DNA from: Roseimicrobium gellanilyticum
GTDB taxonomy: Bacteria; Verrucomicrobiota; Verrucomicrobiia; Verrucomicrobiales; Verrucomicrobiaceae
Reading direction: 5' to 3'
DNA: 64,000 nucleotides
Assembly: GCF_003315205.1 (NCBI RefSeq)
Contig: NZ_QNRR01000001.1
Location: 1,054,001 to 1,118,000, forward strand
Position 1 is the first letter of the stretch; every line of letters begins with the position of its first letter. This document shows, piece after piece, positions 11,078 to 58,771 of this stretch. Position numbers and translations under genes: made by a program. Under the pieces are notes generated by a model. The model was given only the letters and a program-made list of their open reading frames with translations. It did not search any database and was not told where the DNA came from.

Positions 11078-12553
11078 ATGAAACTGAAGTTCAAGTTCAC
11101 CCCCCTGTTTGCGAGCCTGCTTTTGGCCGTCGGCATTGCCCACGCGGACTCTGTCACTCTCAAAACCGGAGAGAAGTTTGAGGGGAAAATCCTCAGCGAC
11201 ACGGATACCGAAGTGGTCTTGGAGTACAACCTGACTCCCAAGATCAAGGACAAGAAGACGATCAAGAAGTCCGACATCCAGGACATGGTCAAGCTGTCCC
11301 CCTCAGAGCTCGCCTTCGTTGAGGAGAAGATGAGCGAAGTGCTGCCCACGCAGGACCTGATGACCGGGGGCGACTACGAGCGCATCATCCAGGACAAGCT
11401 GCGTACCTTCGTGGCGAAGTATCCCGGTACCAAGGAAGCCGGCGAAGTGGAGAAGATGATCTCCACCCTTTCCGAAGAAAAAGGGAAGGTGGTTGCCGGC
11501 GAGGTGAAGATGGAAGGCAAGTGGCTGGATCCTGCAACCGCCAAGCGGGAAGCCTACAACATCGAAGCCTACCGCACGCGTGTTGCCATGAAGGCAGCCA
11601 CAGCAGGCACGGACGAGAAACGTTTCCGTGAGGCGTTGCGGCATTTTGATACGCTGCGCACCCAGTACGGAGCTTCCGCCCAATATGTGGATTCCATTCC
11701 TGAGGCTTTGGAAATCCTTGCCGGCTACCAGAAGCAGCTTGCTGCCATGGCCGCGGAATATCCGGTGATTCAAAAGCAGCGTGATGATGGCATGAAGACG
11801 CTCACCGGCGGCGATCTGCAGCTGACGAGAAATTCCATCGAGCAGGAGGCCCGTGCATTCAAGACTGTCCTCGACGCCCAAATCAAACAGAAGGTGAAGT
11901 GGCGCGATGTCTACAAATTCGATCTGAAGTCGATCCAGAGCGCCCAGGACACCGCGATGAAGGAAGCGGCGGGTCTCAAGGCGCTCGACCTGATCGCCCT
12001 CCGGAAGGAAAATGAGACTCTGGGTTCTGCGCTCCGTTATGTGGCGGACGAAAAGCCGGCTGAGGCCGATGCTGAGCTGGACAAACTGCGTGCGGCGAGA
12101 GCGACCCTGATCAACAGGACTGAAATGGCGCGAGTGGAGAAAGAAGTCCGTGCCCTGAAGGATCGGATGAGGACCCAGCAGAAGGGTGCCGGAGCGATGC
12201 CGGTGGCAGCGGCGACGGGTGCCGACGAAGAGGCTCCCTCAGCCAATCCCATCGAGGAAGCCATGAAGCAGCGTGAAAAGGAGAAGCAGGAAAAAGCTTC
12301 CGGCAAGAGCAGCTCCAAGAGCAGCAAGAAGGAGTCCGATGACAAGGATGCTGCAGACGACAAGAAGGACGAGAAAAAGACCACCAAGGCCAAGACCTCT
12401 TCCTCGGAGAAGTCCAGCTCTACGTCCACCCCTGAGCCTGAGCCCGGCCTCCTTGCCCAGCTCAATGACTACATCCCCTTCATTGGCGGTGGCCTGCTGC
12501 TCATCCTGATTCTGGCCATGGTATTCGGAAAGAAGAAGAAGGCCGACGCCTGA
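11078..12553 (+). CDS. Secreted, C-terminally membrane-anchored helical protein of unknown function
   Basis: The 491-residue product has a clear N-terminal signal peptide (cleavage likely after AHA, near residue 23) and a short beta-rich segment (SVTLKTGEKFEGKILSDT). A long, charged, mostly helical region with coiled-coil character follows. Next comes a low-complexity Lys/Ser/Asp/Glu stretch (about residues 395-455), one hydrophobic helix (about 468-486) and a short KKKK tail. The ends resemble proteins exported and then held in a membrane by a C-terminal anchor. I do not recognise a named family and assign no function. It is divergent from the ParA gene and is followed by a good terminator-like hairpin. 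Confidence 0.8.
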   Translation: MKLKFKFTPLFASLLLAVGIAHADSVTLKTGEKFEGKILSDTDTEVVLEYNLTPKIKDKKTIKKSDIQDMVKLSPSELAFVEEKMSEVLPTQDLMTGGDYERIIQDKLRTFVAKYPGTKEAGEVEKMISTLSEEKGKVVAGEVKMEGKWLDPATAKREAYNIEAYRTRVAMKAATAGTDEKRFREALRHFDTLRTQYGASAQYVDSIPEALEILAGYQKQLAAMAAEYPVIQKQRDDGMKTLTGGDLQLTRNSIEQEARAFKTVLDAQIKQKVKWRDVYKFDLKSIQSAQDTAMKEAAGLKALDLIALRKENETLGSALRYVADEKPAEADAELDKLRAARATLINRTEMARVEKEVRALKDRMRTQQKGAGAMPVAAATGADEEAPSANPIEEAMKQREKEKQEKASGKSSSKSSKKESDDKDAADDKKDEKKTTKAKTSSSEKSSSTSTPEPEPGLLAQLNDYIPFIGGGLLLILILAMVFGKKKKADA

Positions 12554-14023: not shown

Positions 14024-14740
14024 CTACAGCTTCAGGCGCGAGACAGAAATCCTCCCGCCGAAGCATGCTTCCACGTCCGAGCCCGGCTGCACCGGGCGGT
14101 CTGCGTAGCGCGCGGTATACTTGAGTCTGCGGTGCCCCGGAGATGTATCATCTACCATCACCTCCTCATAGGCTACATTGAGCGGGAGGCGGCAGGGCGT
14201 GGTGGTGATGCGCTCAGGCAGTTCCCGTTCCCCGGGTGGCAGGTGCGGGAGATTTACGTTCCAGAGCTCTCCATCCGCCAATGGCTGCGTGATGAGTTCT
14301 CCCAGAAGCTGTGCTGTCCAGCGGGCCACACGGGGCCAGTCGAGGGCGATGCCCGAGATGAGATAGTGGGAGACAGCGATGGCGGGAACGCCGTGGTACG
14401 CAGCCTCGCGAGCCCCGGCCAGGGTGCCGGAGATCGGGATATCCTGGCCCATATTTCCCCCGGCATTCACTCCAGAGAGCACGAAGTCGGGCCTGATGCC
14501 CAGGGCGAAAAGCCCGATGCGCACACAGTCAGCCGGTGTGCCGCTGGTGTGGTAGCGGTTGTCGGATTCCTGCACTGTGGTCAGCAAATGGTGTGTGGTG
14601 AGGCTGTGGCCACACTGGGAGCGCTCGCTGGAAGGCGCTACAATGGTGAAGGTGGCGCCAGGAATGAGGGATACCGCATCCGCCATGGCTGCGATGCCGG
14701 GGGCGTGGACGCCGTCGTCGTTCGTGATGAGGAAGTGCAT
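14024..14740 (-). CDS. surE: 5'/3'-nucleotidase SurE
   Basis: SurE is a metal-dependent phosphatase that acts on nucleoside monophosphates and is linked to stationary-phase survival. The N-terminal LITNDDG (metal ligands Asp8 and Asp9), the VAPSSERSQ segment, GTPADCVRIG and the SGVNAGGNMG motif are all family-specific. Length (238 residues) is typical. It converges with hisH and lies 12 bases after the LON-domain gene, so the two probably form a small operon. Confidence 0.96.
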   Translation of the reverse strand: MHFLITNDDGVHAPGIAAMADAVSLIPGATFTIVAPSSERSQCGHSLTTHHLLTTVQESDNRYHTSGTPADCVRIGLFALGIRPDFVLSGVNAGGNMGQDIPISGTLAGAREAAYHGVPAIAVSHYLISGIALDWPRVARWTAQLLGELITQPLADGELWNVNLPHLPPGERELPERITTTPCRLPLNVAYEEVMVDDTSPGHRRLKYTARYADRPVQPGSDVEACFGGRISVSRLKL

Positions 14741-14752
14741 TTGCGGCTGCGC

Positions 14753-15385
14753 TCAACTGCACTTCTTCTTTTGCAGCGCCTGCAGCAGCATTTCGTAGCG
14801 CCTGATGAGGGAAACTTCGGCGAGGAGCTTTTGCTGAAGCTTCGGACAGCGGGTGAAGTGGTAGCTCAGCACATCACAAACGAGCTCCGGATCCTCCGTC
14901 CCTTCCAGGGCGGCACGCAGTTGCTTGGCCTCCTCAATACACGCATTGGCAAAGAGCTCCAGCACCTGCTGTTTCAGTTCACGGGCACGATTCAGGTCGT
15001 CCGCGATCGTTGCTACGGGCTCGATGGTGGCAATCTTGAAGGGCTTCTCCTGAACCCAACCTGTGAGCTTGATGCGGCGCAGGCCCAGGAGCAAAAGCTG
15101 GGACGTGCCGTCCGACTGCTTCACACAGGCACGAACGAGCCCCGCGGTGGTGTAGGGCTGCACGGGTGCCGACTCGGATGTGCTCTCCCGTGATCCCACG
15201 CAGAACATGCGATTGGTATCCAGAACATGACTCAACATCTGGCGGTAGCGTTCCTCAAAGATATAAAGAGGAAGCAGGCAGCCAGGGAAGAGATGGCAGT
15301 CCGTCAGCACCATGACCGGCAGCCTGTCTGGCAGGGTGCGGTCTTCTGGGGGATTGGGATCAAAGGTTTTCGAGCTGGAATCCAT
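14753..15385 (-). CDS. LON substrate-binding-domain protein
   Basis: The product is about 210 residues and matches the stand-alone N-terminal domain of Lon protease. Key features are the VMVLTDCHLFPGCLLPLYIFEERYRQML segment near the start (shown here as the PL.IFE.RYR pattern), a GLVRACVKQ strand and a helical C-terminus. No ATPase or protease domain is present. Proteins of this type occur widely, but their targets are poorly known. ATG 15385 is chosen; an in-frame GTG at 15403 is possible. It is upstream of and close to surE. Confidence 0.88.
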   Translation of the reverse strand: MDSSSKTFDPNPPEDRTLPDRLPVMVLTDCHLFPGCLLPLYIFEERYRQMLSHVLDTNRMFCVGSRESTSESAPVQPYTTAGLVRACVKQSDGTSQLLLLGLRRIKLTGWVQEKPFKIATIEPVATIADDLNRARELKQQVLELFANACIEEAKQLRAALEGTEDPELVCDVLSYHFTRCPKLQQKLLAEVSLIRRYEMLLQALQKKKCS

Positions 15386-16787: not shown

Positions 16788-19700
16788 TCAGGGAGCGTAG
16801 ACCCACTCAGGAGCGTTCAGCATGGCCCAGAGCACGTCTTCGAGTTTGCCTCGCCAGGTGGCATCGAGCTTCTCGGTGGGAGTATCACCCTTGCGGGCAT
16901 CGACCTCTTCCTGCATGCGCACCGTGGTGGCTTCAGGGTCGAGGTGGTTGGACCAGGAGACATACTTCGCGGGTTTGCGGCTGATTTCCGCAACCTTTGC
17001 AGGAGCACCGGTCTTCACGCGAGTGGCATAGCCCTCCGAGAGATAAGATGTGTAGCGCTCGCGTTCTTCCGCGGTGGGATTGCGGGTGAGGAGCTTGAGG
17101 AAGAGCGTGTCCACCAGTTTTTCCACCGGCATGTCCCGTAAAGCGAGCTGGGTCACGCCGTGGTCATCGCTCAGACGGGTAAGCCAGACGCCCACAGTAC
17201 CATTCGAGATGATGGCAGGTTGCAGCGCATTGGGATCTGTTTCACGCACACTGCTCGGGTCTTGGCGCGCACCACGCCAGCCGAAGGCAGTGAGCACGTC
17301 GCACATGGCCTGGATGCGTGGAAGGCTCAGGCTGGGACGGTCACGCTCGTTGGACGTCGATGCGAGCATCCAGGAGCGGCGCGGCTGGCCGAGGCTGATG
17401 GAGTTGTTCAAATCGCGACGGCCATCAATGTCGAGGCTCACTTCCTCCGTGCGGAAGGGCTTGCCAGTCGCTGCGAAGAGAGCATCGACGATCTGCTCCG
17501 CATTCAACCGGCGTGGGGCAGGTGAGGTGAAGAGGGGGCTTGGTGCCTTCAGTGTGGAATCGGTGGCGCGTTGATACGCGTGCGAATTCATGACCAGCGA
17601 GGTGAGCTTCTTCAAGCTGTAGCCGGACCGCACAAACTCACGACCCAGGTACTGCAGAAGCTCGGGATGCGTGGCCTTGCCCTTTTCCCAGTCTGCCACG
17701 GGCTCCACGATGCCGCGACCCATGAGGCGGGCCCACACGCGATTCACGATGACCTGGGCAAAGCGCTCATTCTGCGGTGCGGTGATGAGTGACGCAAGCC
17801 GATCGCGATCGTCCTTCACATCCTGTGCCAGCTTGTCCGCCACGTCTTCCGGGCAGAACTCCGGGAACGGCCACTTCGGTTGCACCTTGGTGCCGGGCTG
17901 CAGGGTGACCTGGATCAACGGCTTGCGACCACCCGCATGCAGCTTGTCCATGGGGACACTGCTCGTGGCGGGCACGTTGAGTGGCTCCCTGGCCATCATG
18001 GCGGCGATTTCAAAGAGATCCTGCTGGGTGCTCTCGTGGGCAGGGGAGTCATGGCATCGGGCGCACTTGGTTTCCACCCCAAGGAATGCGGTGGTGACGA
18101 TGGTGCCCTTGGCTGCCATCGGCACGTCATTCTGGGAAGCCACGCCAAATCCCGCTGGCCCACCGAAACGCACGCTGCCACGCAGGCGCACCAGCTCGGT
18201 GACGAAGAGATCCATGGGCTTGTCATCCAGCATCGATTCATAGATCCACCAGCGGAAGGGACCGGTGTTGTTCAGCGTGGGATTGAGAATGTTCGGATTC
18301 TCCGCAAGCACATCTTGCCAGTAACCGACCCAGTTGTCTGCCCAGCGAGGATCGGCGAGAAGGCGGTCGATGGCCTTGGCGCGCTTGTCCTTGCTTGTGT
18401 CCTTCACGAAGGCTTCGATCTCGGCCAGCGAGGGGGCAACACCCACGGTGTCCAGCGTCACACGACGCAGGAACGTGAGGTCATCCGTGAGCGGAGTGAG
18501 GTTCACATGAGCGACCTTCAGCTCGGGCCAGGTCGCGCCTTCTTTGATCCAGCGGGAGAGGAGGTCGATCTGTTCCTTTGTCAGCGGCTTGCCCTTGGGC
18601 GGCATGATGAGCTCTTCATCATCCGTGGACACGCGAGCGATGATGGAGCTCTTCTCAGGATGCTTCGGTGTGATGCCGGCGCCATCGGACTCACCCCCGC
18701 GCAAGGCTGCCGCGAAATCGTCCAGACGGAGATCGCCCTTCGTCTTGGTGCCTTGATGGCAATCGTAGCACTTGGTTTCCAAAATGGGTTGGATGTCACG
18801 GTAGTAGTCTACGGTGCCGCTTTGTGCTGCTGTGTTCTGCGCTGCTACGCGGGCAATCTTCTGTGCGAGGAAGTTGTCGATCGCATTCAGTGCAGGATAG
18901 CCCTCGGCAGCGGCGGGTACTTTCACTTCAGGAGTTTCTGCCAGCCACTTCGTGGCAGCTTCACGACGCTTCGTCCAATAGGCGGCCTGCTCGCCACGGA
19001 GAGCGGCGCGGGCTTCCGCATCCATGGCGGAGAGCTTCATGCTCTGCTTCGCTTCGTATGCAGCCCAGGACTGGTCATTGTAGGCGATGGGCTCCTTGCC
19101 AGGGGTGAGCAACTCCCATGATTCCGTACCCTGCTTGGACCACGCCACGACCATTTCACCTGTTTCCGGACGACGGCGGTTCTTCGCGCCAAGCACACCA
19201 CCCACCATCTGCTCGAGCATCACCACGTGTTCGCCGCCCTTGGATTCGAACTCGACCACAGCTTCCTGCGTTCCCGGAGGTGCAAAGCGGAAGTCAGGAC
19301 CAAGGTCGAGATACGTGGCCTGCTCGGCGACATAACCGTGACCACCGCTATCAGGCTTCGCAAAGGCGAGCTTCATGATCAGCTTGCCATCGACGTACAG
19401 CTGTGAGGCACTGCGTCCGCGGAGGAGCAGGCGGTGCTTGCCCGCAGGCAGGGTCACCTTCGCAGCGGCGCGCAGCACGAGCGGATTGGCGCGGTCACCG
19501 CGTACACCGGTATCCACATACTTCTGTGGAATGTCGCTGATGCCAAAGGCCCCGACGTTGTAGGACTCATCAGCCTTGGGAGGAATGGTTGGCCAGGCGT
19601 TTTTCGCAGGCACGCCACTTTCACAAATCTCCACCCGCACCAAACCCTTCGGCAGAGTGTCAGGATTCACGACTGGAGGCGGAGGAATGAATTGGAAACG

Positions 19701-20534
19701 CTGGGCGAGCAATGTCTCCGGCACTGCTTTGCGATAGATGGCGACTTCATCGAGCCAGCCACGCAGCGTATTGCCTTCGCCACCGCCATAGCCGGTGCCG
19801 ATCATGATGTCGTCACCATCCTGCACAGGCGCGCGATCCGTCTTGCCATCCAGATCCCAGGTGCCCTTCACTTCCTTGCCATCGACAAAGCTGCGAATGC
19901 TGGAGCCCTTGCCGAAGGTGTAGGTCACGGCGATGTGGTGCCAGCCGCTGCCGGGTGTGAGGCCTTCGGTGGCCACCCAACGATGGTACCCTTCCTTGGC
20001 ATCGGGCTTGTCCGGAAGACTGCGGAACAAAAACGTAGGCCGCGCCTCACCGCCCTCACCCTTCAAACGCAGGGCGTAGTTCTGGTTCTCTGGCGTGAAA
20101 TCCTTGTTCTTGTTGCGCCCTTTGCCGATGAGGTAGCTGTATGCGCCGTTGCGGATCTCTTCCACATTCACCCAGGCCTCGAGTGTGATGGAGTCATCCA
20201 TGCCGAATCGCACATTGGTGTCAGGCAGATCCGACTCCTTCACCACGATGGCTGTGTTCGTACCACCAAAGTATGCCGCCTTGTTGCCAGGTTGAAACGC
20301 GGGAAAAGTGGGCGGCAAAGGACCATCCTCAAGCTGCTCCTTGCCCTTCCACTTGCCGGCCTCCTTCGCATCGAAGCTCCATTTTACGATGGGCTTGTAG
20401 TCCGCCGCTTTTGGATTCTCCTTCGAATCATTCTGCGCATCGTTCGCAGCATCGTTGTTGCCTGCATCATTCTGCGCGAGCAGCGGTGCAGCAGCCATGG
20501 CGAGTGCGAAGGGGAGTAACCGGAAATGCTTCAT
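16788..20534 (-). CDS. LamG / cytochrome-like / DUF1549-DUF1553 secreted protein (PSD1 type)
   Basis: The 1248-residue product starts with a signal peptide ([21 protein letters not shown]), which sets the start at ATG 20534. In order it shows a LamG-like domain (about 90-290), a sugar-binding-like region (about 340-460), a planctomycete cytochrome-like segment with CYDCHQG (heme-type CxxCH near 591), a DUF1549 region containing CARCHDS (second CxxCH near 824) and a C-terminal DUF1553. Such proteins are secreted and proposed to act on complex polysaccharides with their DUF1501 partners. The link to sugars is inferred from genomics, not proven. Confidence 0.93.
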
Positions 20535-20602
20535 GGTGAGGTAGGTCGATGATAACGAGATCCGGCCCGTTATTCCAACACCGCAAAGAGGGGAATTTTG
20601 GC

Positions 20603-20618
20603 TCCCCCATTTGGGGGA
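20603..20618. promoter_or_regulatory. Short palindrome in divergent intergenic region
   Basis: TCCCCC and GGGGGA flank a 4-base centre in the 235-base gap between the divergent PSD1-type gene and the Tudor-repeat gene. It could be an operator or an RNA hairpin. Nothing further supports either. Confidence 0.3.
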
Positions 20619-20733
20619 TTGATTTACATGCCGCACAAAATGAATGGTTTAGCGAGATAGTTTGTTTGGCCGTTTTTGCATCTGCGGGGAACATTCGAAA
20701 GAAATCTGCCAGCCAGGAGGTTCCGAGGCTGGC

Positions 20734-20762
20734 TTGACACTTTTTATCGAGCCCTTTACCCT
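20734..20762 (+). promoter_or_regulatory. Possible sigma-70-type promoter before the Tudor-repeat gene
   Basis: A perfect TTGACA (20734-20739) is followed after 17 bases by TACCCT, a weak -10. The start codon is only 7 bases further on, which would make the transcript nearly leaderless. An AGGAGG at 20715-20720 is too far from the ATG to serve as its ribosome site. Confidence 0.35.
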
Positions 20763-20769
20763 CGATTTC

Positions 20770-21777
20770 ATGAAAACGATCCGGGTGCTAGGAGCGACCT
20801 TGATGGCAGTTTCAGTGACGTTCGCCAGCCAATTGCTGGCGGGGCCCGGAAGCCAGATTGGCGTCGGGAATCGGGTGGCCGCGATGTGGAGCAATGGCGG
20901 CTACTTTCTCGGCACAGTGACGGAGATCGAAGGCGAACGCTTCAACATTCTCTTTGAAGATGGCGACCGGCTGGCCGTGGATTCTTCAAGGGTGGTCGCT
21001 CTTCGTGAAGACACTGCTTTCGCTGTGGGGGAGCGTGTGATGGCAGCATGGAAGGGCATCTCCATGTATCCGGGAGTCGTGACCAAGGTGCATGCGAAGT
21101 CCTGCATGGTGAAATGGGACGACGGCGATGCACCCCTGCTGGTGGCGAAGGACAAGATCTTCCATGCGGACAAGGCGGTCGTGGCGACGACGGCAGTGAC
21201 GATGATTCCCACTGTCAGTGACCAGACTTTCAAGGTGGGTGATCACGTTATGGCCGTGTGGAAAAACGGGCACAAGTTTCCAGGTGTCATCTCCCAGGTC
21301 GAAGGTAATCACTTTCTAATTCGCTGGGATGATGGAGATACTCCGCTGTGGGTAGCTAAAGAGGGAATCTCATCTCTAGAAGGGGCGCGTGTAACTACCG
21401 CAACTACCTTCAACGTGGGCGAGCATGTGGCCGCACAGTGGAGGGACTCCCGCTACTATCCCGGCGTCGTGACCGAGGTTCGCGGCAGCCAGTGCCTCAT
21501 CAAATGGGATGATGGCGACGAGCCTCTCTTTGTCCTTCAGGAGCACATTCGCGCGCTGCCAAATACTCCGTCAGCATCATTGAACGTGGGTGATCATGTC
21601 CTGGCCTCCTGGAAAGATGGTCACAAGTATCCGGGTGTCATCGCTGAAGTGCGTGGCGACTCGTGCCTCATCAGGTGGGATGATGGTGATGAGCCCTTGT
21701 TCGTGGCGAAGGACAAAATCCTTCCCTTCCCTCAGCAGCAGGTGCGGTTGCTCCCAGGCGCGACTCCGGGACGGTAG
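20770..21777 (+). CDS. Exported protein with five Tudor-like repeats
   Basis: The start at ATG 20770 gives a signal peptide (cleavage near LLAGPG, residue 24 or so) and 335 residues. The remainder is five repeats of about 45 residues, at roughly 31-80, 86-130, 156-200, 216-260 and 273-317. Each repeat has the pattern VGDHVxAxWxxGxxYPGVVxxV followed by LIxWDDGDxPLxV. The pattern resembles the small beta-barrels of the Tudor/Agenet or lamin-B-receptor Tudor class, which bind methylated ligands in eukaryotes. Here the protein is predicted to leave the cytoplasm, so its ligand is unknown. It converges with ispF. Confidence 0.85.
   Translation: MKTIRVLGATLMAVSVTFASQLLAGPGSQIGVGNRVAAMWSNGGYFLGTVTEIEGERFNILFEDGDRLAVDSSRVVALREDTAFAVGERVMAAWKGISMYPGVVTKVHAKSCMVKWDDGDAPLLVAKDKIFHADKAVVATTAVTMIPTVSDQTFKVGDHVMAVWKNGHKFPGVISQVEGNHFLIRWDDGDTPLWVAKEGISSLEGARVTTATTFNVGEHVAAQWRDSRYYPGVVTEVRGSQCLIKWDDGDEPLFVLQEHIRALPNTPSASLNVGDHVLASWKDGHKYPGVIAEVRGDSCLIRWDDGDEPLFVAKDKILPFPQQQVRLLPGATPGR
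20860..21720 (+). repeat. Five-copy coding repeat (Tudor-like modules)
   Basis: The modules occupy about 20860-21009, 21025-21159, 21235-21369, 21415-21549 and 21586-21720. Copies 2 to 5 are the most alike and share the WDDGD core; copy 1 is the most diverged (FEDGD). The unequal spacers argue for old duplications rather than recent slippage. Confidence 0.75.
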
Positions 21778-47131: not shown

Positions 47132-47836
47132 TCAATCGCGACGCTGGAAGATGGCGATATTCGGAGCATAGGCCCACGGCTTCCACTGGGGGCACTCCTT
47201 GAGCACCCGCTGGCAGACACGATTCACTCCGGGAAATGCGTCGACATCGTGGAAGGCGACAAAACCCGAGGGCGCCACCAGGCTGCCCCATGCTGCGAAG
47301 TCATACCACGCATGGAGATACTCATGGATGGCATCAATGAACACCATGCTGATGGCCTCTCCGCTCCATGAGGTGAAAGCGGCATCCGAGACGTCCCTGA
47401 CGTGTCGAATATTGGTCATGCCATCGGTGTGCTCGCGGAAGAGGGCGAGATCCTTCTCATGACCACCCTCTCCAAGATAGGGGTCGACGGCGACCACTGT
47501 CCGCTTGGTGGCCGCAGCCAAAGCACGGGTTGTGACGCCGCGGAAGCTGCCGATTTCCACGATGGGGCTGTCCATGGTTTCAGATTCGGCCACTGCTGCG
47601 AGCAGCACCTCAAGCTGACCCTGAGTCACTGCGGTGTGAGGCAATCCTGTGCCGGCTTCCTGTGTCACGCGGGCTCCGGCCCCCGTAAAGACTGGTACCA
47701 GCGAACGGTGGGTCTTCCGTGAAGTGAATTCATGGAGTCTCCTCCGAACCGTCCAGTTCCAGAATCTTGCGACGTTCCAGCGCGAGCGATTCCGCCAGAG
47801 AGAAGGCGATTCCGGAATGGGAATGAGACGGTTCAT
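47132..47836 (-). CDS. Class I SAM methyltransferase (Methyltransf_24 type)
   Basis: The 234-residue product has the SAM loop VEIGSFRGVTTRALA (about residues 92-106), an acidic strand end VAVDPYLGEG, VFIDAIHEY and the FHDVDAFPG segment. This pattern matches cephamycin/CmcI-type and sugar O-methyltransferases. It has no membrane anchor. It sits between a glycosyltransferase and another methyltransferase in the glycan locus, which suggests methylation of a sugar residue. Confidence 0.86.
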   Translation of the reverse strand: MNRLIPIPESPSLWRNRSRWNVARFWNWTVRRRLHEFTSRKTHRSLVPVFTGAGARVTQEAGTGLPHTAVTQGQLEVLLAAVAESETMDSPIVEIGSFRGVTTRALAAATKRTVVAVDPYLGEGGHEKDLALFREHTDGMTNIRHVRDVSDAAFTSWSGEAISMVFIDAIHEYLHAWYDFAAWGSLVAPSGFVAFHDVDAFPGVNRVCQRVLKECPQWKPWAYAPNIAIFQRRD

Positions 47837-47894
47837 GACAGATTAGCTGATGTAGAAAGAAGGAGGGTGAGGTCTGCTGCGCGCAGGAATGGCA

Positions 47895-48563
47895 TCACAG
47901 ACCGAGGCAATTGCCATCTCGATAAAAAATCGTGGTCTCGTCGACTCCAAGCCCCGCAGGCTTGAGGCCTTGGAGTCGAAGCTTCCGGAAGCCTTTTTGT
48001 TCCAGTTCCGCGATGCCTTCCTGATAGCGGGGCCTTGAGGAGTCATCCCAGAGAATCACACCATCGGAAGCCAGGCGCGGAAGGCAATGGCGTGCACAAT
48101 CGACACGCATCCTGCCATCAATGAGAATGATCTGAAACTCGCCCACAGCCTGCGATGCGGCGCGGGGGTAGTTGTCCCCGAGAGGCACGAGGAGGATGCG
48201 GACGTTTGAAGATGCGGGAATCATCTCCTTCACACGCTGGAGCCATTGCTCTTCGTGCTCCACGGCGACCACCTCCTTCACGCGTGAGCTCCAGAAAACC
48301 GTGGAAAAGCCGCTGCCGAACTCCAGCACACGGTGGTCGGGTTTCAATCTCTCTTCCAGCAGTGCCAGAATGGGGTAGTTGAGATAGGCGAGAGGTTTTC
48401 CCTGGGCATCGACAGGAAGATTTTTTTCCAACGATCTCAGGTAACCTGTCTGCAGAAGGTAAGAGCTGGAGTGCCGGATGAGATGGCGGCAACGCCAGAG
48501 GACCGCGAGCCTGGGAGCCCGGCGTTCAACCAGGGTTTGGAGTTTGGAGATGAAGGTTGCCAT
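47895..48563 (-). CDS. Class I SAM-dependent methyltransferase
   Basis: The 222-residue product has the SAM-binding strand-loop VLEFGSGFSTVFW, an acidic strand end VAVEHEEQW and the segment IILIDGRMRVDCARH followed by DDSSRPRY. This arrangement is like small sugar or phospholipid methyltransferases. ATG 48563 is preferred over TTG 48566. It is a separate enzyme from the FkbM family members further upstream. Confidence 0.85.
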   Translation of the reverse strand: MATFISKLQTLVERRAPRLAVLWRCRHLIRHSSSYLLQTGYLRSLEKNLPVDAQGKPLAYLNYPILALLEERLKPDHRVLEFGSGFSTVFWSSRVKEVVAVEHEEQWLQRVKEMIPASSNVRILLVPLGDNYPRAASQAVGEFQIILIDGRMRVDCARHCLPRLASDGVILWDDSSRPRYQEGIAELEQKGFRKLRLQGLKPAGLGVDETTIFYRDGNCLGL

Positions 48564-48627
48564 CAATCGACTGTTTCAAAGAGTGACTGCACGCGCTGCC
48601 GTAGCCAGGGGCTCTGAGGTGCCGGCC

Positions 48628-49482
48628 TCATGCGCTTTGCCGGGGATGCATGATCAGATACCCACGCGAGGCCCCGCGTACTTCGTTCAGGGCGGTCGAC
48701 AAATCCGCAGGCGACAGGACGTTGCGAGTTATCTCAAGATAGTGGGGAATGCTCTTGGGAGCATGGGACACGTACTCAATGTCGTGCGAGTCCTGAAAAC
48801 GGCTCTGCAGGAGATTGCGTGTGGATTCTCCGGGAGAGTCCTTGGTCTCGTGCAGTTCCACCACGATGACGGAGTCGCGAAGCGCCGGGCATTTCATGGG
48901 GTCGATCAAAAAAGTTTCCCCGCCTTCGATGTCACAAAAGAGCAGCCCCTTGCTTTTGGCAGGGCCAAGAAGCTTCCCTAGTTCTTCGAAGGTGCACAGC
49001 AGGTTGATGCGAAGATTTGAAATCTGATTGAGCCGCGCGAGCCGTGCCTGCGCGCGTCGGGCGAAGGGGTCGATGTCGAACGCATGCACGACAGTGTCAG
49101 GGAGGCGGGCCGCCAGCAGCACGGCGTAGTACCCTTCGGCTGCCCCCACATCCACGATGACACTGGGTGGTGATTGGAAAAGCCTTTCCAGAAACGGATG
49201 CAGTTCATCTTCGTAGCTGCCGATCCACTTAGGAAGAATGGGCCCCCACAGGCCCACTTCGTCCAGATAAGGCAGACCTTGGAAGGGGCCGGAGAGAACC
49301 GTGGGAGGCGCGCCCCCGTACAATAGGGGGCGCACCTGGTTTTGAAACTTCCCGTACCTCTTCTTGCAATGCTGACGGAAGCGATAGGAACTCAGGAACT
49401 GATACACCTTCGGGAATGCAGCTTTGGCTGCACCACGACAGGTTTGCGTGATCTTTTTGCGCCAGGTCGAGGAAGCGGACAT
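48628..49482 (-). CDS. Diverged FkbM-like methyltransferase
   Basis: The 284-residue protein has the SAM loop VIVDVGAAEGYYAVLLA, FDIDPFARRAQ as the acidic strand end and LLFCDIEGGETFL, which resembles the FkbM IDxEGxE site. The overall match to FkbM is weaker than for the four clear copies. It is probably a sugar O-methyltransferase of the locus. Confidence 0.78.
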   Translation of the reverse strand: MSASSTWRKKITQTCRGAAKAAFPKVYQFLSSYRFRQHCKKRYGKFQNQVRPLLYGGAPPTVLSGPFQGLPYLDEVGLWGPILPKWIGSYEDELHPFLERLFQSPPSVIVDVGAAEGYYAVLLAARLPDTVVHAFDIDPFARRAQARLARLNQISNLRINLLCTFEELGKLLGPAKSKGLLFCDIEGGETFLIDPMKCPALRDSVIVVELHETKDSPGESTRNLLQSRFQDSHDIEYVSHAPKSIPHYLEITRNVLSPADLSTALNEVRGASRGYLIMHPRQSA

Positions 49483-49494
49483 GTGAAGAATTAG

Positions 49495-50289
49495 TCAGCG
49501 GCGGGTCAGCCGCTTCAAAATGCCGCGAGGACCAGCAGCCCGCGCGCGCTTGTAGAGGGTTCGGCTTCGGAACCAGCACCAACGAAGAAACAGGCGCATG
49601 TTGACTGGCCCGAAGTACACGGGCGGATGCCCCGTGTCATGACCCAGCAGAGCCGCGTATTCTTCGACGAAGGGATTGCGATCATGAATGATCTTGGCGC
49701 GAGCAAAGCCGCCGAGCACCACGGGATAGTTGGTGCGGAAATTGAATTCCGCCGGCAGGATGTAGTGGCGCAGATCCGAGTGAAACAGAGTGTGGCGGAA
49801 GGCGGGCTGGTCAGCCGGCCGCTTGTGCTGGAAGACGTTCAGGTAGTTTTCCTCCCAGGCTTTGAAGAAGGCAATGGTCCGCGGTTCCCGCCGATACACC
49901 ACCACCCCGGTGTTCAACGCGGGGAACGAATCCGGAAATTCCTCGAAGGCATACTCATTGCGATACACCTCATGAGCGATGGCGAGATCGTACTTCTCAA
50001 GCGGCAGGAAGATATCCTCGCAGGGCTGGCACATCCAGGTATCTGAGTCGAGGAACAACGTCTCGTCGTATGGAGTCGCTGCCATGGAGCGGATCTTTCC
50101 GGGGCGCCCCATGTTGCCACCCTCAACCGGAATGACCTGCTCAAAGAGTCCCGGTGGCGGTGTTTGATCCGTAAAGAGTGTCATGGGAAAGCCCGGCATT
50201 ACTGCCTGCACGGACTTTGCCGAGATCACTGCCTCAGCCAGGTACTTGGGTCCTGTAGCCACGTAGATGATGCCTCGAGTCTTTGTCAT
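49495..50289 (-). CDS. Nucleotide-sugar glycosyltransferase (GT8-like)
   Basis: From ATG 50289 the product is 264 residues. It reads IIYVATGPKYLAEAV at the start, a metal-site FLDSDTWMC and ALNTGVVVYRREP, a pattern seen in GT8-like or nucleotide-diphospho-sugar transferases with a GT-A fold. The frame is open further upstream, but that part overlaps the previous gene. It lies in the middle of the glycan locus. Confidence 0.82.
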   Translation of the reverse strand: MTKTRGIIYVATGPKYLAEAVISAKSVQAVMPGFPMTLFTDQTPPPGLFEQVIPVEGGNMGRPGKIRSMAATPYDETLFLDSDTWMCQPCEDIFLPLEKYDLAIAHEVYRNEYAFEEFPDSFPALNTGVVVYRREPRTIAFFKAWEENYLNVFQHKRPADQPAFRHTLFHSDLRHYILPAEFNFRTNYPVVLGGFARAKIIHDRNPFVEEYAALLGHDTGHPPVYFGPVNMRLFLRWCWFRSRTLYKRARAAGPRGILKRLTRR

Positions 50290-50329
50290 GTATTTCTGAA
50301 GCCCTTCACTTGGATTCAGGCGGGTACGT

Positions 50330-51370
50330 TCACTTGGATCTGGCGAGGTCCGGTTTCTGAGAAGCGGAAGCGGATGAGCGCTCCGTTTCCTGTACCAGCG
50401 CATGGAATCCCTGCTTGTATTGTGGAGAGTAGGTGATGCGCAAGGGGATCGTCTTCAGCAGGTTGAGCCACTGCCTGCCACTGCGGAGCGCAAGGATGGC
50501 GGCCGGCACTCCGGCTTCGGCAAGGTGGAAGATGGCCGTGGCGCCTTCAGACCGCTCACGAGCCTGCTTGAGCACTGCGTCCATGGATTCGCGCACGTCA
50601 CGAGTCCACCGTCTTACCTGATCCCGGGTGAAATAAACTTCGCTGAGATGGGCGAGGCGATGGCGCAAAACCCCACCCGCCGATCCACTGCGGGGACTCT
50701 GCTTCTTGCAAACGAAGCGCCCAAACACCGCAAGCGGCTCTGGCTCATACCGGCAGTCATCCTGAAAACTGACGGCACGTCGTGGCTCGGAGAGTGAGGC
50801 GTTGTAGGGTTCGAGCGCGGAGAGGTTGACCCCGCGGTGCAGACGCCAGAAATAGCTCAGGTTTCCAATGGTGTAGGTGAAGAATGCCTCCAGTACACGG
50901 TCGCGATATGTGATGACGCGCGACTCACTGCCGTAAAGGGAGCGCATGGGTTCATCCGGATTGGACGTGAAGGAACCATCTTCCTCGATGTCCACCATGA
51001 GGAAGTTTCGCGCCAATACCGGTTCTTTGTTGGCCTGCAGACTCTTCACGTTTTCTTCGAGCAGTGTCGGTTGGAAGAGATTGTCATCTTCGAGCACACA
51101 GGCGAATTCCGTGTCGTCGAACACCGGCTCAGGCGCGAACGCCTTGCAAAGGTTCAGCGCGGCTCCCAGGTTCTTTGCGTTCGGTCGGCACTCGATACGG
51201 GCATCACCAAGCTCGTTGACGATGGCAAGGGACTCTTGATCCGGTGAGTCGTCATACACCACGGCCCGCCAGTCGGTGTACGTCTGGCTGTAGAGTCCTG
51301 CCAGCGCCCGGCGCAGCAGCGCGGGGCGCTTGTAGGTGATGATGCGCACTTCTACCTTGGGCCGGGACAT
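50330..51370 (-). CDS. GT2-family glycosyltransferase
   Basis: The 346-residue product begins with VEVRIITYKRPALLRRAL, then VVYDDSPDQESLAI and the metal-site ACVLEDDNLFQP, typical of inverting GT2 enzymes. The C-terminal third is less conserved and carries FRKTIPLRITYSP-type basic stretches. Its acceptor is unknown. It is separated by about 50 bases from the next gene of the operon. Confidence 0.88.
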   Translation of the reverse strand: MSRPKVEVRIITYKRPALLRRALAGLYSQTYTDWRAVVYDDSPDQESLAIVNELGDARIECRPNAKNLGAALNLCKAFAPEPVFDDTEFACVLEDDNLFQPTLLEENVKSLQANKEPVLARNFLMVDIEEDGSFTSNPDEPMRSLYGSESRVITYRDRVLEAFFTYTIGNLSYFWRLHRGVNLSALEPYNASLSEPRRAVSFQDDCRYEPEPLAVFGRFVCKKQSPRSGSAGGVLRHRLAHLSEVYFTRDQVRRWTRDVRESMDAVLKQARERSEGATAIFHLAEAGVPAAILALRSGRQWLNLLKTIPLRITYSPQYKQGFHALVQETERSSASASQKPDLARSK

Positions 51371-51420
51371 GGCAATGGGTCAGGAGGACGCAGGAGTCGG
51401 GCGGAAGCGCATGCTCTCTC

Positions 51421-52272
51421 TCAAGCCGCACGCGTGGCGGATTTCCGATAGGCGTAGATGCAAACGTCCTGAAAATGGCCGCGGCGGAAGGGGCGCTGCA
51501 GCTTGCCCTCGATTTGATAGCCAAATCCGGCCGACTCCAGCATCCCCAAGAAGGCCGTCATGGTATCCTGTTCCGGAACAATGTGATGGTGGTACTCGAT
51601 CACCATCTGCTCGATGAGTTGGATCTTCCCAGACTCTACCAGATCCACCAGCACGTCCTGCTCACCGCCTTCAATGTCGAGCTTCAGGAAATCGACCGGG
51701 CCACTCATGTGGTCGGAGAGTTTTGCGGCCGGCACCATCTGGCAGCGCTCGGAGGTTCGCTCCTTCATGCGGCTGGCGAGCAGGGAGCCGGGGCTCTCGT
51801 CCTTGGTGTAGAAGGCAATTTCTCCTGTCTCATTGGCTAGAGCCTTGGCATGTGCGGTGACATCCGCGAGGTTGTTGCGCCGGATGGTTTCCTCCAGGCA
51901 CTGGAAGGCGGAAGGCTGGGGCTCGAAGGCGGTGATGCGCGCCTTGGGATAGAGGCATTTGAAATAGACGAGTGCCATCCCGATGTTGCTGCCGCAGTCG
52001 AGGATCACAGGATCTTCGCGGTGCGCCTTGAAGTAGTAGCTCTGGCGCATGAAGATCTCGTAGAAGAGATATTTCAGCGTTTCCAGGCTGCAGTAGCTCA
52101 TCTCCATGCCGGCGAGGCTTGCCGTCTTGCGAGTCTTGTCGACACGACCCAGGACAAACAGATTCACATATTCCCGGCACAGTCGGCGGCGAAGATCCTT
52201 GGGGAATGGAAATGCCCAAATCGCCTGGAGAGCGCGTTTGAGTTCAATGGGTTGTCGCAGGTACCGAATCAT
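51421..52272 (-). CDS. FkbM-family methyltransferase
   Basis: From ATG 52272 the product is 283 residues. It has the FkbM SAM loop ILDCGSNIGMALVYF, ITAFEPQPSAFQ and the signature FLKLDIEGGEQDVL. FkbM enzymes place O-methyl groups on sugars and polyketides. The start overlaps the upstream GT9-like stop by 4 bp (ATGA), indicating coupling. Confidence 0.93.
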   Translation of the reverse strand: MIRYLRQPIELKRALQAIWAFPFPKDLRRRLCREYVNLFVLGRVDKTRKTASLAGMEMSYCSLETLKYLFYEIFMRQSYYFKAHREDPVILDCGSNIGMALVYFKCLYPKARITAFEPQPSAFQCLEETIRRNNLADVTAHAKALANETGEIAFYTKDESPGSLLASRMKERTSERCQMVPAAKLSDHMSGPVDFLKLDIEGGEQDVLVDLVESGKIQLIEQMVIEYHHHIVPEQDTMTAFLGMLESAGFGYQIEGKLQRPFRRGHFQDVCIYAYRKSATRAA

Positions 52273-53168
52273 GAGATGGCGTCCAGAGTCTTCTTGATGG
52301 CGTCCCGTACCATGGCCGGGGTGATTTGCCGAAGGCATTTTTTGTCATACGGGCAGTCAGTGCGCAGCCAGCACGGGGCGCATGGAACGGGGGAGTAGAA
52401 CTGCCGGGCAAGCGGATAGGGGTAGGTGCCTTCGTAACCGCCAATGACGACGACTGACGGCACCTGATAGGCGTGGGCGACATGCATGCCTCCGGACGGA
52501 GGCCCCACAAACACTGCCGCCTCCTGGATGCACGCGGCGAACTGGGGCATGGTCGTACGACCCACCAGCGAGCGAAAGCGGGGATGCGCCGGCGGCTGAT
52601 CAAACACACTCTCCGTGCCGACCTCCAAGACAGCGATATCGGGAGCCAACAGTTCAATCATTTGCTGCCAGTACTCTTTGGGCCACTGCTTGTTCGGAGT
52701 CCATGCACTGGCCACCGTTTGCATCACCACTGCCGGGGCGTCTTTGGGAAAGGACGAGGGGAGTTCCTCTGGTGGCCTGCGGGGGAGGGAGGTGGTATGC
52801 TCGCTCAGGCGCAGGCCCATTTGCAAAGCCATCTGCTCGACGATCGCAAGCCGGTGGCGCTGGAGATACATCAACCCAATGCTTCCCGCCGGAATGGTTT
52901 CCTGCTGATAGGGGACAATAAGCAGGCCGTCGGTCGACGCAGGCATGAGGGACATGTGCCTCGCATGGAAGGTGAGCTTGCACGAGGGTGCCTTTTGGGA
53001 CGCGGCTTGCACCACGGAAAGAGCCATCAACTCGTCCCCCAGACCACCGGCCACAGACCAGACATCCAGAGAGCGGCGCCGCCAAGGGGGCATCTTCAGC
53101 CGAAGCGCCCAACTCAGTTCAGTACGGCGCCGACGGGCGAGAGCCCGGAACTTCGAAAGAAGGGTCAT
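52269..53168 (-). CDS. GT9-family (heptosyltransferase-like) glycosyltransferase
   Basis: From ATG 53168 the product is 299 residues. Features are WSVAGGLGDELMALSVVQAA at the start, the VGTESVFDQPP region and the donor-site FVGPPSGGMHVAHAYQVPSVV with a following PCAPCWL cysteine segment. GT9 enzymes include LPS heptosyltransferases. It overlaps its FkbM neighbours by 4 bp on both sides, so the three genes are a tight translational unit. Confidence 0.9.
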   Translation of the reverse strand: MTLLSKFRALARRRRTELSWALRLKMPPWRRRSLDVWSVAGGLGDELMALSVVQAASQKAPSCKLTFHARHMSLMPASTDGLLIVPYQQETIPAGSIGLMYLQRHRLAIVEQMALQMGLRLSEHTTSLPRRPPEELPSSFPKDAPAVVMQTVASAWTPNKQWPKEYWQQMIELLAPDIAVLEVGTESVFDQPPAHPRFRSLVGRTTMPQFAACIQEAAVFVGPPSGGMHVAHAYQVPSVVVIGGYEGTYPYPLARQFYSPVPCAPCWLRTDCPYDKKCLRQITPAMVRDAIKKTLDAIS

Positions 53169-54217
53169 CCGACGAATTGCTCTTCTGGCAGCAGGCCGCC
53201 CCGCGATGTGGCGGACTCGTGTGAAGCCGGAAGGGCCAGCAGATTGGCGTACTCGCGTCGCAGGTTCCGTTCCTCGGATGGCATGGGCACAAGGGCTAGT
53301 CCCAGCCTCCGGTGGTCCCGGGGGAGCTTGGAAGTCTGCATCAGGCATCTGACCCCGTTTTGCTCAAAGGCCCACGCCGGCTGGTAAAGGTGATAACCCA
53401 GGGACTCCAACAGGCGCAGGGGTTCCAGGCTGCTCACCGAATCCGCTGCCCAGTTCTCCATGATGATTACAGGCTTCGCACGATTGAGCACCTTTTGTGC
53501 TCCCCTCAGCACGGCCGCTTCATGACCTTCCACGTCCAGCTTGATGACGGAGGGATCCGGAAGGTCCATCGAGTCTGCCGTCATCACCTTCACCCGTTCA
53601 CCGGAAGCGTTTGCATCGAGAGATGCGAGACCACTGTGGACACCGTCCGGAACCGCCATGCAGGATGTTCCATTCACATCACCGAGAGCCAGTTGGTGAC
53701 AGTGCACGCGCTCGCTCAAACCTGCCTGCTTCACAACGGATGCGAGATCACGAAACGATGAAGGTGTGGGCTCAAACGCATGAATTTCCCCGGTGAACTC
53801 CGGGCGCGCGCAGGCATAGAGGGGGAAGTATCCCCAGTTGCTGCCGATGTCCCAGAACACACCGGACTCACGGAGAAAGGCGTCCAGCAATACGGAGGTC
53901 TCAGGTTCGTATCCCTCGGCGAATTTTGGAAGGTAGACCGCGTGGAACTGGGTGTTCCTCGCATCGAACTGGATTTCGATCGGCTTGCCACCGGGAAGGT
54001 AGTCGAACAACCCCAGCGCCGGGCGGCGATGCAAAGCCAGGACTGCGGAGTAAATCCGCCGCAGCGCAAAACTTTGCGCGATACCGAGGTGGGAACGCCG
54101 TCCGTGGTGGTAGACGTATTGATAAAACTTGGCCAGAGCGGGCAGCCGTTTGGAGCGAAAGCAAAGCCTGACCGAATTCGACAGCAGCCGTTGCTGGGAT
54201 GTGGTGTGTTGGTGCAA
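53165..54217 (-). CDS. FkbM-family methyltransferase
   Basis: The 350-residue product shows FWDIGSNWGYFPLYA as the SAM loop, IHAFEPTPSSF and VIKLDVEGHEAAVL, followed by KPVIIMENWAAD. This is the standard FkbM order. The start is a TTG at 54217; no better start was found nearby. It overlaps the GT9-like start by 4 bp. The long N-terminus of about 110 residues is not part of the core domain. Confidence 0.92.
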   Translation of the reverse strand: MHQHTTSQQRLLSNSVRLCFRSKRLPALAKFYQYVYHHGRRSHLGIAQSFALRRIYSAVLALHRRPALGLFDYLPGGKPIEIQFDARNTQFHAVYLPKFAEGYEPETSVLLDAFLRESGVFWDIGSNWGYFPLYACARPEFTGEIHAFEPTPSSFRDLASVVKQAGLSERVHCHQLALGDVNGTSCMAVPDGVHSGLASLDANASGERVKVMTADSMDLPDPSVIKLDVEGHEAAVLRGAQKVLNRAKPVIIMENWAADSVSSLEPLRLLESLGYHLYQPAWAFEQNGVRCLMQTSKLPRDHRRLGLALVPMPSEERNLRREYANLLALPASHESATSRGGLLPEEQFVG

Positions 54218-54245
54218 GTGGTCGCGGGACTATGGGGATGGATTC

Positions 54246-55394
54246 CTAGCCACTACGCCGGGGGTGGGCATCGAGCACTCGTGATTGCCGCCATTGATTG
54301 ATTGGGAGATCAATGAGGCGCAGCACGAGCCAGCTCATTCCGCATGAAATGGCCATCGTGGTCAACATGAAAACAAAGGAGTTCTGAATAGAGGTGCCGA
54401 AGAGTGACTTGGTCCAGGGGGCGAGGAGTGCCGTTTTGACTGTAATGTGCAGCAAATATACCGGGTACGACAACTCGCCCACAGCGCGGTCCCACTTTGA
54501 ACGGGCACTCCACTGGAACAGGGAGGGAATGGCAAGCGCTGCAAGCCCATAGAGCAACACCTGGCTCAGGGTATGGCTCACGGAGGCAATCAGGGTATAG
54601 AATGCGATGGACAGTCCCAACGCGGTAACGATCCCAATCTGCACGAACGTCCATCCTGCCGAGGGGCTGAAGTTCTGCACCCCACGGTACAGCCGGTAGG
54701 AGAGGATTCCCAACACGAAATACCCAAACTGCATCGGAAACCAGAAACTGCCTGCAACGGTGGCGAAGGAAGGAGACGTCAGCTTTGGCAATGCCACGAC
54801 GAGCAGCATGCTCCCGAGCAGCACGAGGGCAAGACCCCAGGTGCGCAGGCGGGTCAGAAGCGGTGCGGCGAGATAGAAACACAATTCGCACGAGATGCTC
54901 CATGCGTGGGCCAGGGGAAGAGGTCTCCATCCGCGGATGAATCCCTCAACCTTCCCAGTATAGAGCGAGGGGACGAGGTCAGGAGACAGGGAGAATAGAA
55001 AGAAGCTGTCCACGCCAAATCCGGAAAGCTGCGTGCCGGCATAGGCACTCAGCAGACCCCAATGTCCCTCCTGCGAAAGCCGGCGGAGATCGGCCAGCCA
55101 ATGCCCGCTGGGAAGGGAATCCGAGCTGAGCAGGATGAAACCAAGCACCACTTCCACAAGGAGTGCCACCCAGAGCAGAGGAAAGATGCGGAGCGCGCGG
55201 TTGGAATAGAAAAGCCACAGGCGACCGGGAAGTCCCTCTCGATATTTCTCCGCGAGGATCATGGCCATGTAGAAGCCTGACACCGCGAAGAAGAGTCTCA
55301 CGGCCACTTCGCCATGAATCACAGTGAGGCCTTTGGGTGGCACTGTATGAGCCACGACCACCAGGAGCGCGAGCAGCAATCGGAAATGACCCAT
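54246..55394 (-). CDS. Acyltransferase 3 family membrane protein
   Basis: The 382-residue protein has about ten membrane segments. The N-terminal LVVVAHTVPPKG carries the conserved histidine of the family; later segments include FFAVSGFYMAM, a basic NRALRIFPLLW and a late LSYPVYLLHIT. Members O-acetylate or succinylate sugars and lipids. It fits a decoration step in the glycan locus and starts at ATG 55394. Confidence 0.93.
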   Translation of the reverse strand: MGHFRLLLALLVVVAHTVPPKGLTVIHGEVAVRLFFAVSGFYMAMILAEKYREGLPGRLWLFYSNRALRIFPLLWVALLVEVVLGFILLSSDSLPSGHWLADLRRLSQEGHWGLLSAYAGTQLSGFGVDSFFLFSLSPDLVPSLYTGKVEGFIRGWRPLPLAHAWSISCELCFYLAAPLLTRLRTWGLALVLLGSMLLVVALPKLTSPSFATVAGSFWFPMQFGYFVLGILSYRLYRGVQNFSPSAGWTFVQIGIVTALGLSIAFYTLIASVSHTLSQVLLYGLAALAIPSLFQWSARSKWDRAVGELSYPVYLLHITVKTALLAPWTKSLFGTSIQNSFVFMLTTMAISCGMSWLVLRLIDLPINQWRQSRVLDAHPRRSG

Positions 55395-55424
55395 CTCTAC
55401 TGGATTGTATTTTTCCTGGTGGAC

Positions 55425-57875: not shown

Positions 57876-57994
57876 GGCCACTTACAGGTCGGCAGGACGG
57901 ATGTTGTCATGGCCGTGTTCAGCCGATCTGGTGAAGAGGTGGCGAGATATCACGCCTCGGAACGATGCCATGGTGTCTGGTTTCAAGATGGTGC

Positions 57995-58759
57995 TCAAGG
58001 ATGGCGCTCCTGAACGGAAGGCAGACCGGTCACCAGCTGGTCATTCGTCAGCGGAGTTCTTGATGCGATGAAGATGGCGCGGCTGAGCGGTGCCGCATGC
58101 TGGTCTGGTTGGGTCCAGTCGGTGGGGAACTCCGGATGATTTGGCTGCGTCACCGGCACGTACACATGAGGGAAGGACTGTTTCAGTTGCTCGAAGAGCC
58201 AGCGTCGTGTGGGCCTGCAGCCGGAGCCTGACGTGGCCTGCGTGGGGTCTTCACGTTTTTCGGGAACAATGTTGATCTCCAGACCGTCGCCAAAAGAAAC
58301 GCAGGTCTCAAGAAGGAGCATGCCCCGGGTCAACTTTGCCAGGTACTCAAGTGTGGCAGCGGGATTCCCCAGGTGATACAAGGTTCCGTAGCAGTGGGTG
58401 ATGTCGAATTTCTCGTTGTCCAGTTCCGGACCGGGAGCTTCTAGATCGTGCTTGCGAATGTCTGCGTCAGGAAACCGGCGACGAAGGACCGCAAGGTTGT
58501 CCTCACGCGGCTCAGTGATCGTAATCTGGCAGTCGCGATCACGGTAGTAGCGCGAGTGGTCGCCGATGCCCGCGCCCACTTCCAGTACACGCTGTCCCCG
58601 GACGGGAAGCCGTAGACTCGCAAGATGCTCAAGACGGCAGCCGGTATGACGCAGATAGAAAAACGCGTGGAAATAGTTCCTGGGATCGGAGGCTTCCGTG
58701 GCCTGCAGGCCGAACTTGGGAGCCAGCCGCTTCGCTGCTTTTACGAGGAGGGATTTCAT
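57995..58759 (-). CDS. Class I SAM methyltransferase
   Basis: The 254-residue product shows VLEVGAGIGDHSRYY, ITITEPREDNLAVL and FDITHCYGTLYHLGNPA, the standard motifs of small-molecule methyltransferases (Methyltransf_11/25 type). It has no FkbM-type IDxEGxE signature. The acceptor is unknown; sugar methylation is suggested by its neighbours. Confidence 0.88.
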   Translation of the reverse strand: MKSLLVKAAKRLAPKFGLQATEASDPRNYFHAFFYLRHTGCRLEHLASLRLPVRGQRVLEVGAGIGDHSRYYRDRDCQITITEPREDNLAVLRRRFPDADIRKHDLEAPGPELDNEKFDITHCYGTLYHLGNPAATLEYLAKLTRGMLLLETCVSFGDGLEINIVPEKREDPTQATSGSGCRPTRRWLFEQLKQSFPHVYVPVTQPNHPEFPTDWTQPDQHAAPLSRAIFIASRTPLTNDQLVTGLPSVQERHP

Positions 58760-58771
58760 GGGCGGGGCGGA

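Follow-up and report, generated by a model that had tools for sequence, protein, structure and literature searches.

What does a bacterial protein that consists of an apparent export signal and five Tudor modules bind, and does it represent a new kind of protein? The question is raised by one gene in the window, by which we mean the whole 64,000-nucleotide stretch of DNA analysed here. The open reading frame runs from ATG 20770 to a stop codon at 21775-21777 and codes for 335 amino acids, with the following features.

20770..21777, + strand: coding sequence, export signal and five Tudor modules (Pfam; dN/dS 0.13 versus the congener)
20734..20762, + strand: possible promoter, TTGACA - 17 nt - TACCCT, directly before the ATG (by eye and from the alignment with the congener G001)
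20770..20841, + strand: signal-peptide-like N-terminus, amino acids 1-24, MKTIR... to LLA/G, without a lipobox cysteine (inspection, hydropathy and recurrence in relatives)
20857..21006, + strand: Tudor module 1, divergent type, with W40, F46, F62 and D64
21019..21171, + strand: Tudor module 2, with W94, Y100, W116 and D118
21229..21381, + strand: Tudor module 3, with W164, F170, W186 and D188; absent in the congener G001
21409..21558, + strand: Tudor module 4, with W224, Y230, W246 and D248
21580..21729, + strand: Tudor module 5, with W281, Y287, W303 and D305; modelled singly with its flanks

Maintenance of the gene and its putative export signal

The same open frame extends upstream to TTG 20662. 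Because protein similarity to the congener is clear only from ATG 20770, where the signal-like N-terminus also begins, ATG 20770 is the preferred start. In the congener the gene sits in colinear DNA, and 232 of the 267 aligned residues are identical between the two proteins. Given this colinear orthologue and the dN/dS of 0.13 over the 267 aligned codons, the gene is, as judged by codon comparison, maintained under purifying selection. The TTGACA-17-TACCCT pair is kept in the congener and is absent from the list returned by a promoter scan; as a possible promoter, it would yield a nearly leaderless mRNA. Rfam gave no match at the gathering threshold between 15000 and 30000 of the window, NCBIfam matches of the Tudor protein lay far under cut-off, and no PADLOC defence model matched P0001 or P0002 (0 families at E 0.1).

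The stretch preceding the first Tudor module, MKTIRVLGATLMAVSVTFASQLLA/G, has the pattern of a signal peptide, and its hydropathy peaks at 1.96 over amino acids 7-16. The congener retains this pattern, which recurs in two proteins described below, from a Spartobacteria MAG (L015) and from Rhizobium. Inspection, hydropathy and recurrence in relatives agree, so that an export signal, which the earlier note had placed in front of the modules, is supported by pattern. If this N-terminus did not work as a signal, the protein would be cytoplasmic and might act, for example, on nucleoid proteins. The signal call is pattern-based, the hydropathy peak is moderate compared with the 2.84 of the L015 protein, and translation from an inner ATG (20803), which has a GGAG upstream of it at 20791, would shorten the signal. 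However, the congener has no GGAG at that place, the signal-like pattern persists in the congener and in distant relatives, and bacterial members of the class to which the protein belongs are described as consistently secreted in the text of Kaur et al. 2018 (PMC5906684). A cytoplasmic protein is thus highly improbable.

Tudor modules, predicted fold and putative aromatic cage

The five modules begin at amino acids 30, 84, 154, 214 and 271, and the linkers between barrels measure 4 to 19 residues. Pfam Tudor_3 matched the protein in five stretches (98.5 bits, E 1.9e-28; cut-off 25.8), and Tudor_5 (77.4 bits; cut-off 31), Agenet (54.7; 27), 53-BP1_Tudor (34.9; 22) and Tudor_2 likewise exceeded their cut-offs. 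When modules 1 to 5 were cut out singly, they scored 20.3, 24.4, 20.5, 29.3 and 23.3 bits against Tudor_3, and module 4 alone passed the cut-off. Mutual identity is 45-57% among modules 2-5 and 27-40% between module 1 and the others. The motif Y/F-P-G-V...WDDGD given in the earlier note therefore describes modules 2-5 but not the divergent module 1, which reads W-S-N-G-G-Y-F-L-G...F-E-D-G-D, with FEDGD where the others have WDDGD. A nine-module profile matched the Tudor domains of KDM4A, PHF20, PHF1, 53BP1 and SETDB1, among others; KDM4A was the best and PHF20 the next among solved structures.

A model of the mature protein, computed from two sequences, contains five barrels of five strands joined by low-confidence linkers (mean pLDDT 70.6, pTM 0.36). 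The first-ranked Foldseek match of the full-length chain, to SPT5 chains of transcription complexes, was rejected as a whole-chain match (TM-scores of about 0.2, rmsd of about 20). Since full-length matches are barrels on a string, a single-module model was relied on instead. The model of module 5, built with nine modules in the alignment, has five strands, with barrel blocks at pLDDT 93-95. The PHF1 and PHF19 Tudors rank first in Foldseek with a modest best E of 1.5e-4, the clean alignments having 32-35% identity and rmsd 1.1-1.4 over 51-54 columns and several other rows having rmsd 5-10 where a flexible tail was aligned. Some of the matched PHF1/PHF19 structures were solved with H3K36me3. 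VIA-align gave Z scores of 9.7 for PHF1 (6wav; rmsd 2.4, 58 aligned), 9.5 for TDRD3, 8.3 for KDM4A (2gfa) and 8.1 for LBR (2l8d). A five-stranded SH3-like barrel of the Tudor/Royal (chromo-like) superfamily is thus a well-supported prediction. The earlier reading of the protein as five tandem Tudor-like modules is borne out by the five Tudor_3 stretches and the predicted barrels, and the comparison of predicted and known Tudor folds that it had proposed came out in its favour through the match of module 5 to PHF1/PHF19. Of the likeness to Tudor and LBR domains, the Tudor part stands; PHF1/PHF19, KDM4A, PHF20 and 53BP1 are nearer than LBR, whose Tudor model PF09465 scored 20.5 bits, under its cut-off of 22, and whose structure falls below PHF1 in Z score.

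The five modules of the window protein and the four of the L015 protein were aligned (mean identity 37%, 50 gap-free columns). In three of the 50 columns, every one of the nine modules has an aromatic residue, and within-row shuffling did not produce even one all-aromatic column (0/20000). In a phmmer alignment of module 5 with PHF1, these columns correspond to W41, Y47 and F65; the place of PHF1 D67 is held by aspartate in 9/9 modules. The study of PHF1 reports no detectable binding of an H3tK27me3 peptide by the W41A, Y47A or F65A mutants, weakened binding by F71A, polar contacts added by Asp67, and weaker binding than PHF1 by MTF2, which has three cage aromatics (PMC7492083). At the place of F71, modules 2-5 have proline, module 1 has a gap, and none of the nine modules is aromatic. 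The 53BP1 cage is described as W1495, Y1502, F1519, D1521 and Y1523 (PMC5974088), and the place of Y1523 is aligned with aspartate in the window protein. By sequence, every predicted barrel retains the makings of a half-open pocket, with three aromatics and an aspartate. The putative cage residues are well supported, with three of the four PHF1 cage aromatics matched, although conserved aromatics can also be retained for the barrel core. Because MTF2 with its three cage aromatics binds more weakly, a weak site in each module is plausible, for which five in a row could compensate.

Relatives and membership of a published class

A whole-protein search of 57 genomes gave matches only in the gene's own genome and in the congener; with 2/57 genomes matching, the distribution is narrow. 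The congener protein has four modules, module 3 being missing in frame; the number of modules can thus differ while everything else stays in place. Module 3 shares no more than 57% identity with any of its paralogues, and orthologous modules of the two species are 86-89% identical. On these figures, the idea that module 3 arose by recent duplication in the window lineage was rejected. Since module 3 diverges from its paralogues more than the orthologues diverge from each other, its loss in the congener is likelier, from sequence comparison, than a recent gain.

Among genome contigs, a search with the single protein confirmed 0 of 7 pattern matches, and a search with the module alignment yielded one relative from 148 pattern matches. 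This relative (L015, 5410-6153) is a 247-amino-acid protein of a Spartobacteria MAG with a signal-like N-terminus and four modules. When the alignment was read by eye, its modules seemed to alternate A-B-A-B, and those of the window protein follow the order A-B-B-B-B. The tandem array may have grown from an A-B module pair. Viral contigs contained no relative (0 from 49 pattern matches), and phage records contained none. Plasmids gave one weak tblastn match with P0001 (E 7e-3), to a Rhizobium protein, and no match with P0002. The Rhizobium leguminosarum protein WP_025397713.1 (P0003), annotated as 'tudor domain-containing protein', resembles the window protein in that its two Tudor modules follow a signal-like N-terminus; it differs in being only 124 amino acids long, in being coded on a plasmid in another phylum, and in having Agenet as its best Pfam model.

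A whole-protein profile matched 6 of 384 genomes of the class: the gene's own, G551, G639, G597, G482 and G124. In G551, G639, G597 and G482, a caspase-like part is followed by two Tudor-type modules; the G124 protein (L023, E 5.9e-4) has two modules and a C-terminal part. Pfam identified Peptidase_C14 together with Tudor-knot/Agenet in the two of these four fusions that were scanned (L019 and L020) and in a further one (L038), and L021 and L022 have a caspase-like part and two Tudor-type modules by their reading frames. These proteins (L019-L022, L038) resemble the window protein in looking exported and in carrying two tandem Tudor-type modules, but have a Peptidase_C14 part in front, and the modules of L019, L020 and L038 are nearer to Tudor-knot/Agenet. 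A weak EF-hand match was also seen in L020 and L038.

Three further models were run over 387 genomes of the phylum, and each matched twice. PF18115 matched the gene's own genome and G248, where the matched stretch contains a stop, has a 325-amino-acid frame opposite it and was set aside. Module profile A1 matched the gene's own genome and G333 (E 1.9e-4), where the open frame is of odd composition with no signal peptide seen and was left out of the relatives. Tudor-knot PF11717 matched the caspase fusion L038 and L039, a short frame with a stop. The SMN-type Tudor model PF06003 had no match in the gene's own genome, a result that is uninformative because the 14 control genomes also lacked one.

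Kaur et al. 2018 have described secreted bacterial proteins in which chromo-like domains stand in tandem arrays of 2-6 and are often fused to a caspase-like peptidase; they propose that the domains are specific for lysine-like groups that carry methyl marks in peptides of the murein or the matrix, and they trace the chromo/Tudor-like domains of eukaryotes back to secreted bacterial forerunners (PMC5906684). The window protein agrees with these chromo-like (Tudor-like) proteins in its signal peptide (by pattern), its number of tandem domains and its conserved cage aromatics. It differs in having no fused peptidase, and the main text of that paper does not name Verrucomicrobia (0 occurrences; PMC5906684), the phylum that its relatives and its PSCyt/PSD-type neighbour suggest for this genome. 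Thus, the window protein joins a published class, a little-studied, already described group, and is not a new kind. The caspase-Tudor fusions found in this bacterial class repeat the pattern described from other phyla (PMC5906684).

Compared with the human PHF1/PHF19 Tudor, a reader of H3K36me3, the window modules are alike in predicted fold, in sequence (31-35% identity) and in equivalents of W41, Y47, F65 and D67, but PHF1/PHF19 are nuclear and have a four-aromatic cage, of which the window protein lacks the F71 equivalent. The PHF1/PHF19 Tudor is also a single module beside PHD fingers. The tandem Tudors of Crb2/53BP1 and KDM4A are related through Tudor_3, the best Pfam model of the window protein, and through KDM4A, its best PDB profile match; these are chromatin proteins with paired barrels, in contrast to five separate modules. 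In a non-exhaustive literature search, no paper was found that reports what any secreted bacterial chromo/Tudor-like protein binds. Since the window protein contains nothing but signal and modules, with the three PHF1-essential residues intact, it offers a simple test object for the reading of methyl marks on bacterial surfaces.

Candidate partners, ligands and neighbouring genes

Possible writers and peptidases were compared with the distribution of the Tudor protein. In counts that all include the gene's own genome, SET-domain proteins occur in 17/19 genomes and therefore show no link to the Tudor gene. PF10119, a regulatory domain found in outer-membrane lysine methyltransferases, gave no match in either carrier of the Tudor gene, the gene's own genome or the congener; it occurs in 4/57 genomes, and in none of these four did the Tudor protein find a match. 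Peptidase_C14 has two matches in the gene's own genome, none in the congener, and occurs in 9/19 genomes overall. None of the three pairs with the Tudor protein. Methylation of outer-membrane protein lysines is reported as real in other Gram-negatives, and PVC-group sequences fall in a Rickettsia-type cluster (PMC11784438). The earlier note's mention of sugar methyltransferases was accurate, and these lie in a glycan cluster of the window.

47132-59569, - strand: glycan cluster of methyltransferases, glycosyltransferases and an acyltransferase

Pfam assigned three FkbM-type, two Methyltransf_24 and one Methyltransf_12-type methyltransferase among the 11 proteins scanned at about 47-60 kb. These methyltransferases lie about 25-38 kb from the Tudor gene, and no link between cluster and gene was seen in the window. 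Three long frames, at 48628-49482 (-), 14132-15193 (+) and 11078-12553 (+), had no Pfam match at E 1e-4 and may include wrongly chosen frames.

The likeliest account, although we put it at slightly under an even chance, is that the protein is exported and binds cationic side chains, which may be methylated, through several sites at once. A soluble protein would leave by the general secretory route and lose its signal peptide, giving a mature chain of about 34 kDa made of five Tudor barrels. Their pocket residues, which align with those that PHF1 uses for trimethyl-lysine, could provide a multivalent, low-affinity grip on cationic side chains of wall peptides or exported proteins; methylated lysines or comparable methylammonium groups are plausible targets. 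Through avidity the five weak sites would reinforce one another, and the protein would be an adaptor or tether outside the cytoplasm. Against this account, the fourth cage aromatic is missing, and its loss weakens PHF1 (PMC7492083). Methylated proteins or peptides as ligands of this class are already a published hypothesis (PMC5906684). A stronger version, in which the protein is a five-fold reader of methylated lysines or other methylammonium groups carried by neighbouring cells or by exported proteins, and so belongs to a histone-style code on the bacterial surface whose writer is still to be recognised, is tentative and rather doubtful.

Ranked next after a binder of cationic side chains is an exported Tudor-fold peptide or wall binder that is independent of methylation and grips unmodified cationic or amino-bearing peptides, for example peptidoglycan stem peptides, in the manner of bacterial SH3 domains. 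This possible but less likely reading is favored by the parallel that Kaur et al. draw to secreted bacterial SH3 domains binding wall peptides (PMC5906684), by a cage without its fourth aromatic, and by the failure to find PF10119 in either carrier species; yet a generic peptide-binding surface would not obviously require the three aromatics and aspartate kept in 9/9 modules. The exported-looking caspase-Tudor fusions, which have counterparts in other phyla (PMC5906684), suggest a different role, that of an adaptor bringing a separate caspase-like or other exported protease to its substrate. The two Peptidase_C14 matches in the gene's own genome are consistent with such a role, but the congener carries the Tudor protein without any Peptidase_C14 match and no protease was found among the scanned neighbours of the gene, which makes it unlikely.

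Some Tudor domains bind nucleic acid, and matrix nucleic acids are mentioned as a possibility by Kaur et al. (PMC5906684). A binder of extracellular DNA or other polyanions is nevertheless improbable, since the mature protein has a pI of 5.6 and 4/5 modules are negative at pH 7.4, module 2 being slightly positive. The Tudor aromatic cage is a cation-pi site, and O-methyl sugars carry no charge, so that methylated glycans, one of the ligands floated in the earlier note, are a poor candidate. A reader of O-methylated surface glycans would have a supply of FkbM-type and other methyltransferases in the glycan cluster, but that cluster is 25 kb or more away and the conserved pocket is of the wrong type, and we regard it as the least probable of the readings.

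The immediate neighbours of the Tudor gene are unrelated to it. Upstream lies a divergent gene whose roughly 1246 codons specify an exported protein of cytochrome type (PSCyt1/PSCyt2/PSD1/LamG-type by Pfam), and beyond it a TAT-signal DUF1501 gene.

16788-20636, - strand: PSCyt1/PSCyt2/PSD1 protein with a LamG-type domain (Pfam)

On the downstream side, ispF (YgbB), an inositol monophosphatase gene and a DFP-domain (coaB-type) gene are convergent with the Tudor gene. The Tudor gene thus stands single, and nothing suggests an operon. The listed GTG start of the divergent gene, at 20636, is probably too early; a signal-like N-terminus starts 34 codons later. Between the divergent genes, an inverted repeat, TCCCCC-ATTT-GGGGGA, at 20600-20619 is also present in the congener. 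With up to two mismatches allowed, this 20-base stretch occurs once in the gene's own genome; the scan lists it as terminator-like, and it is possibly an operator or a hairpin.
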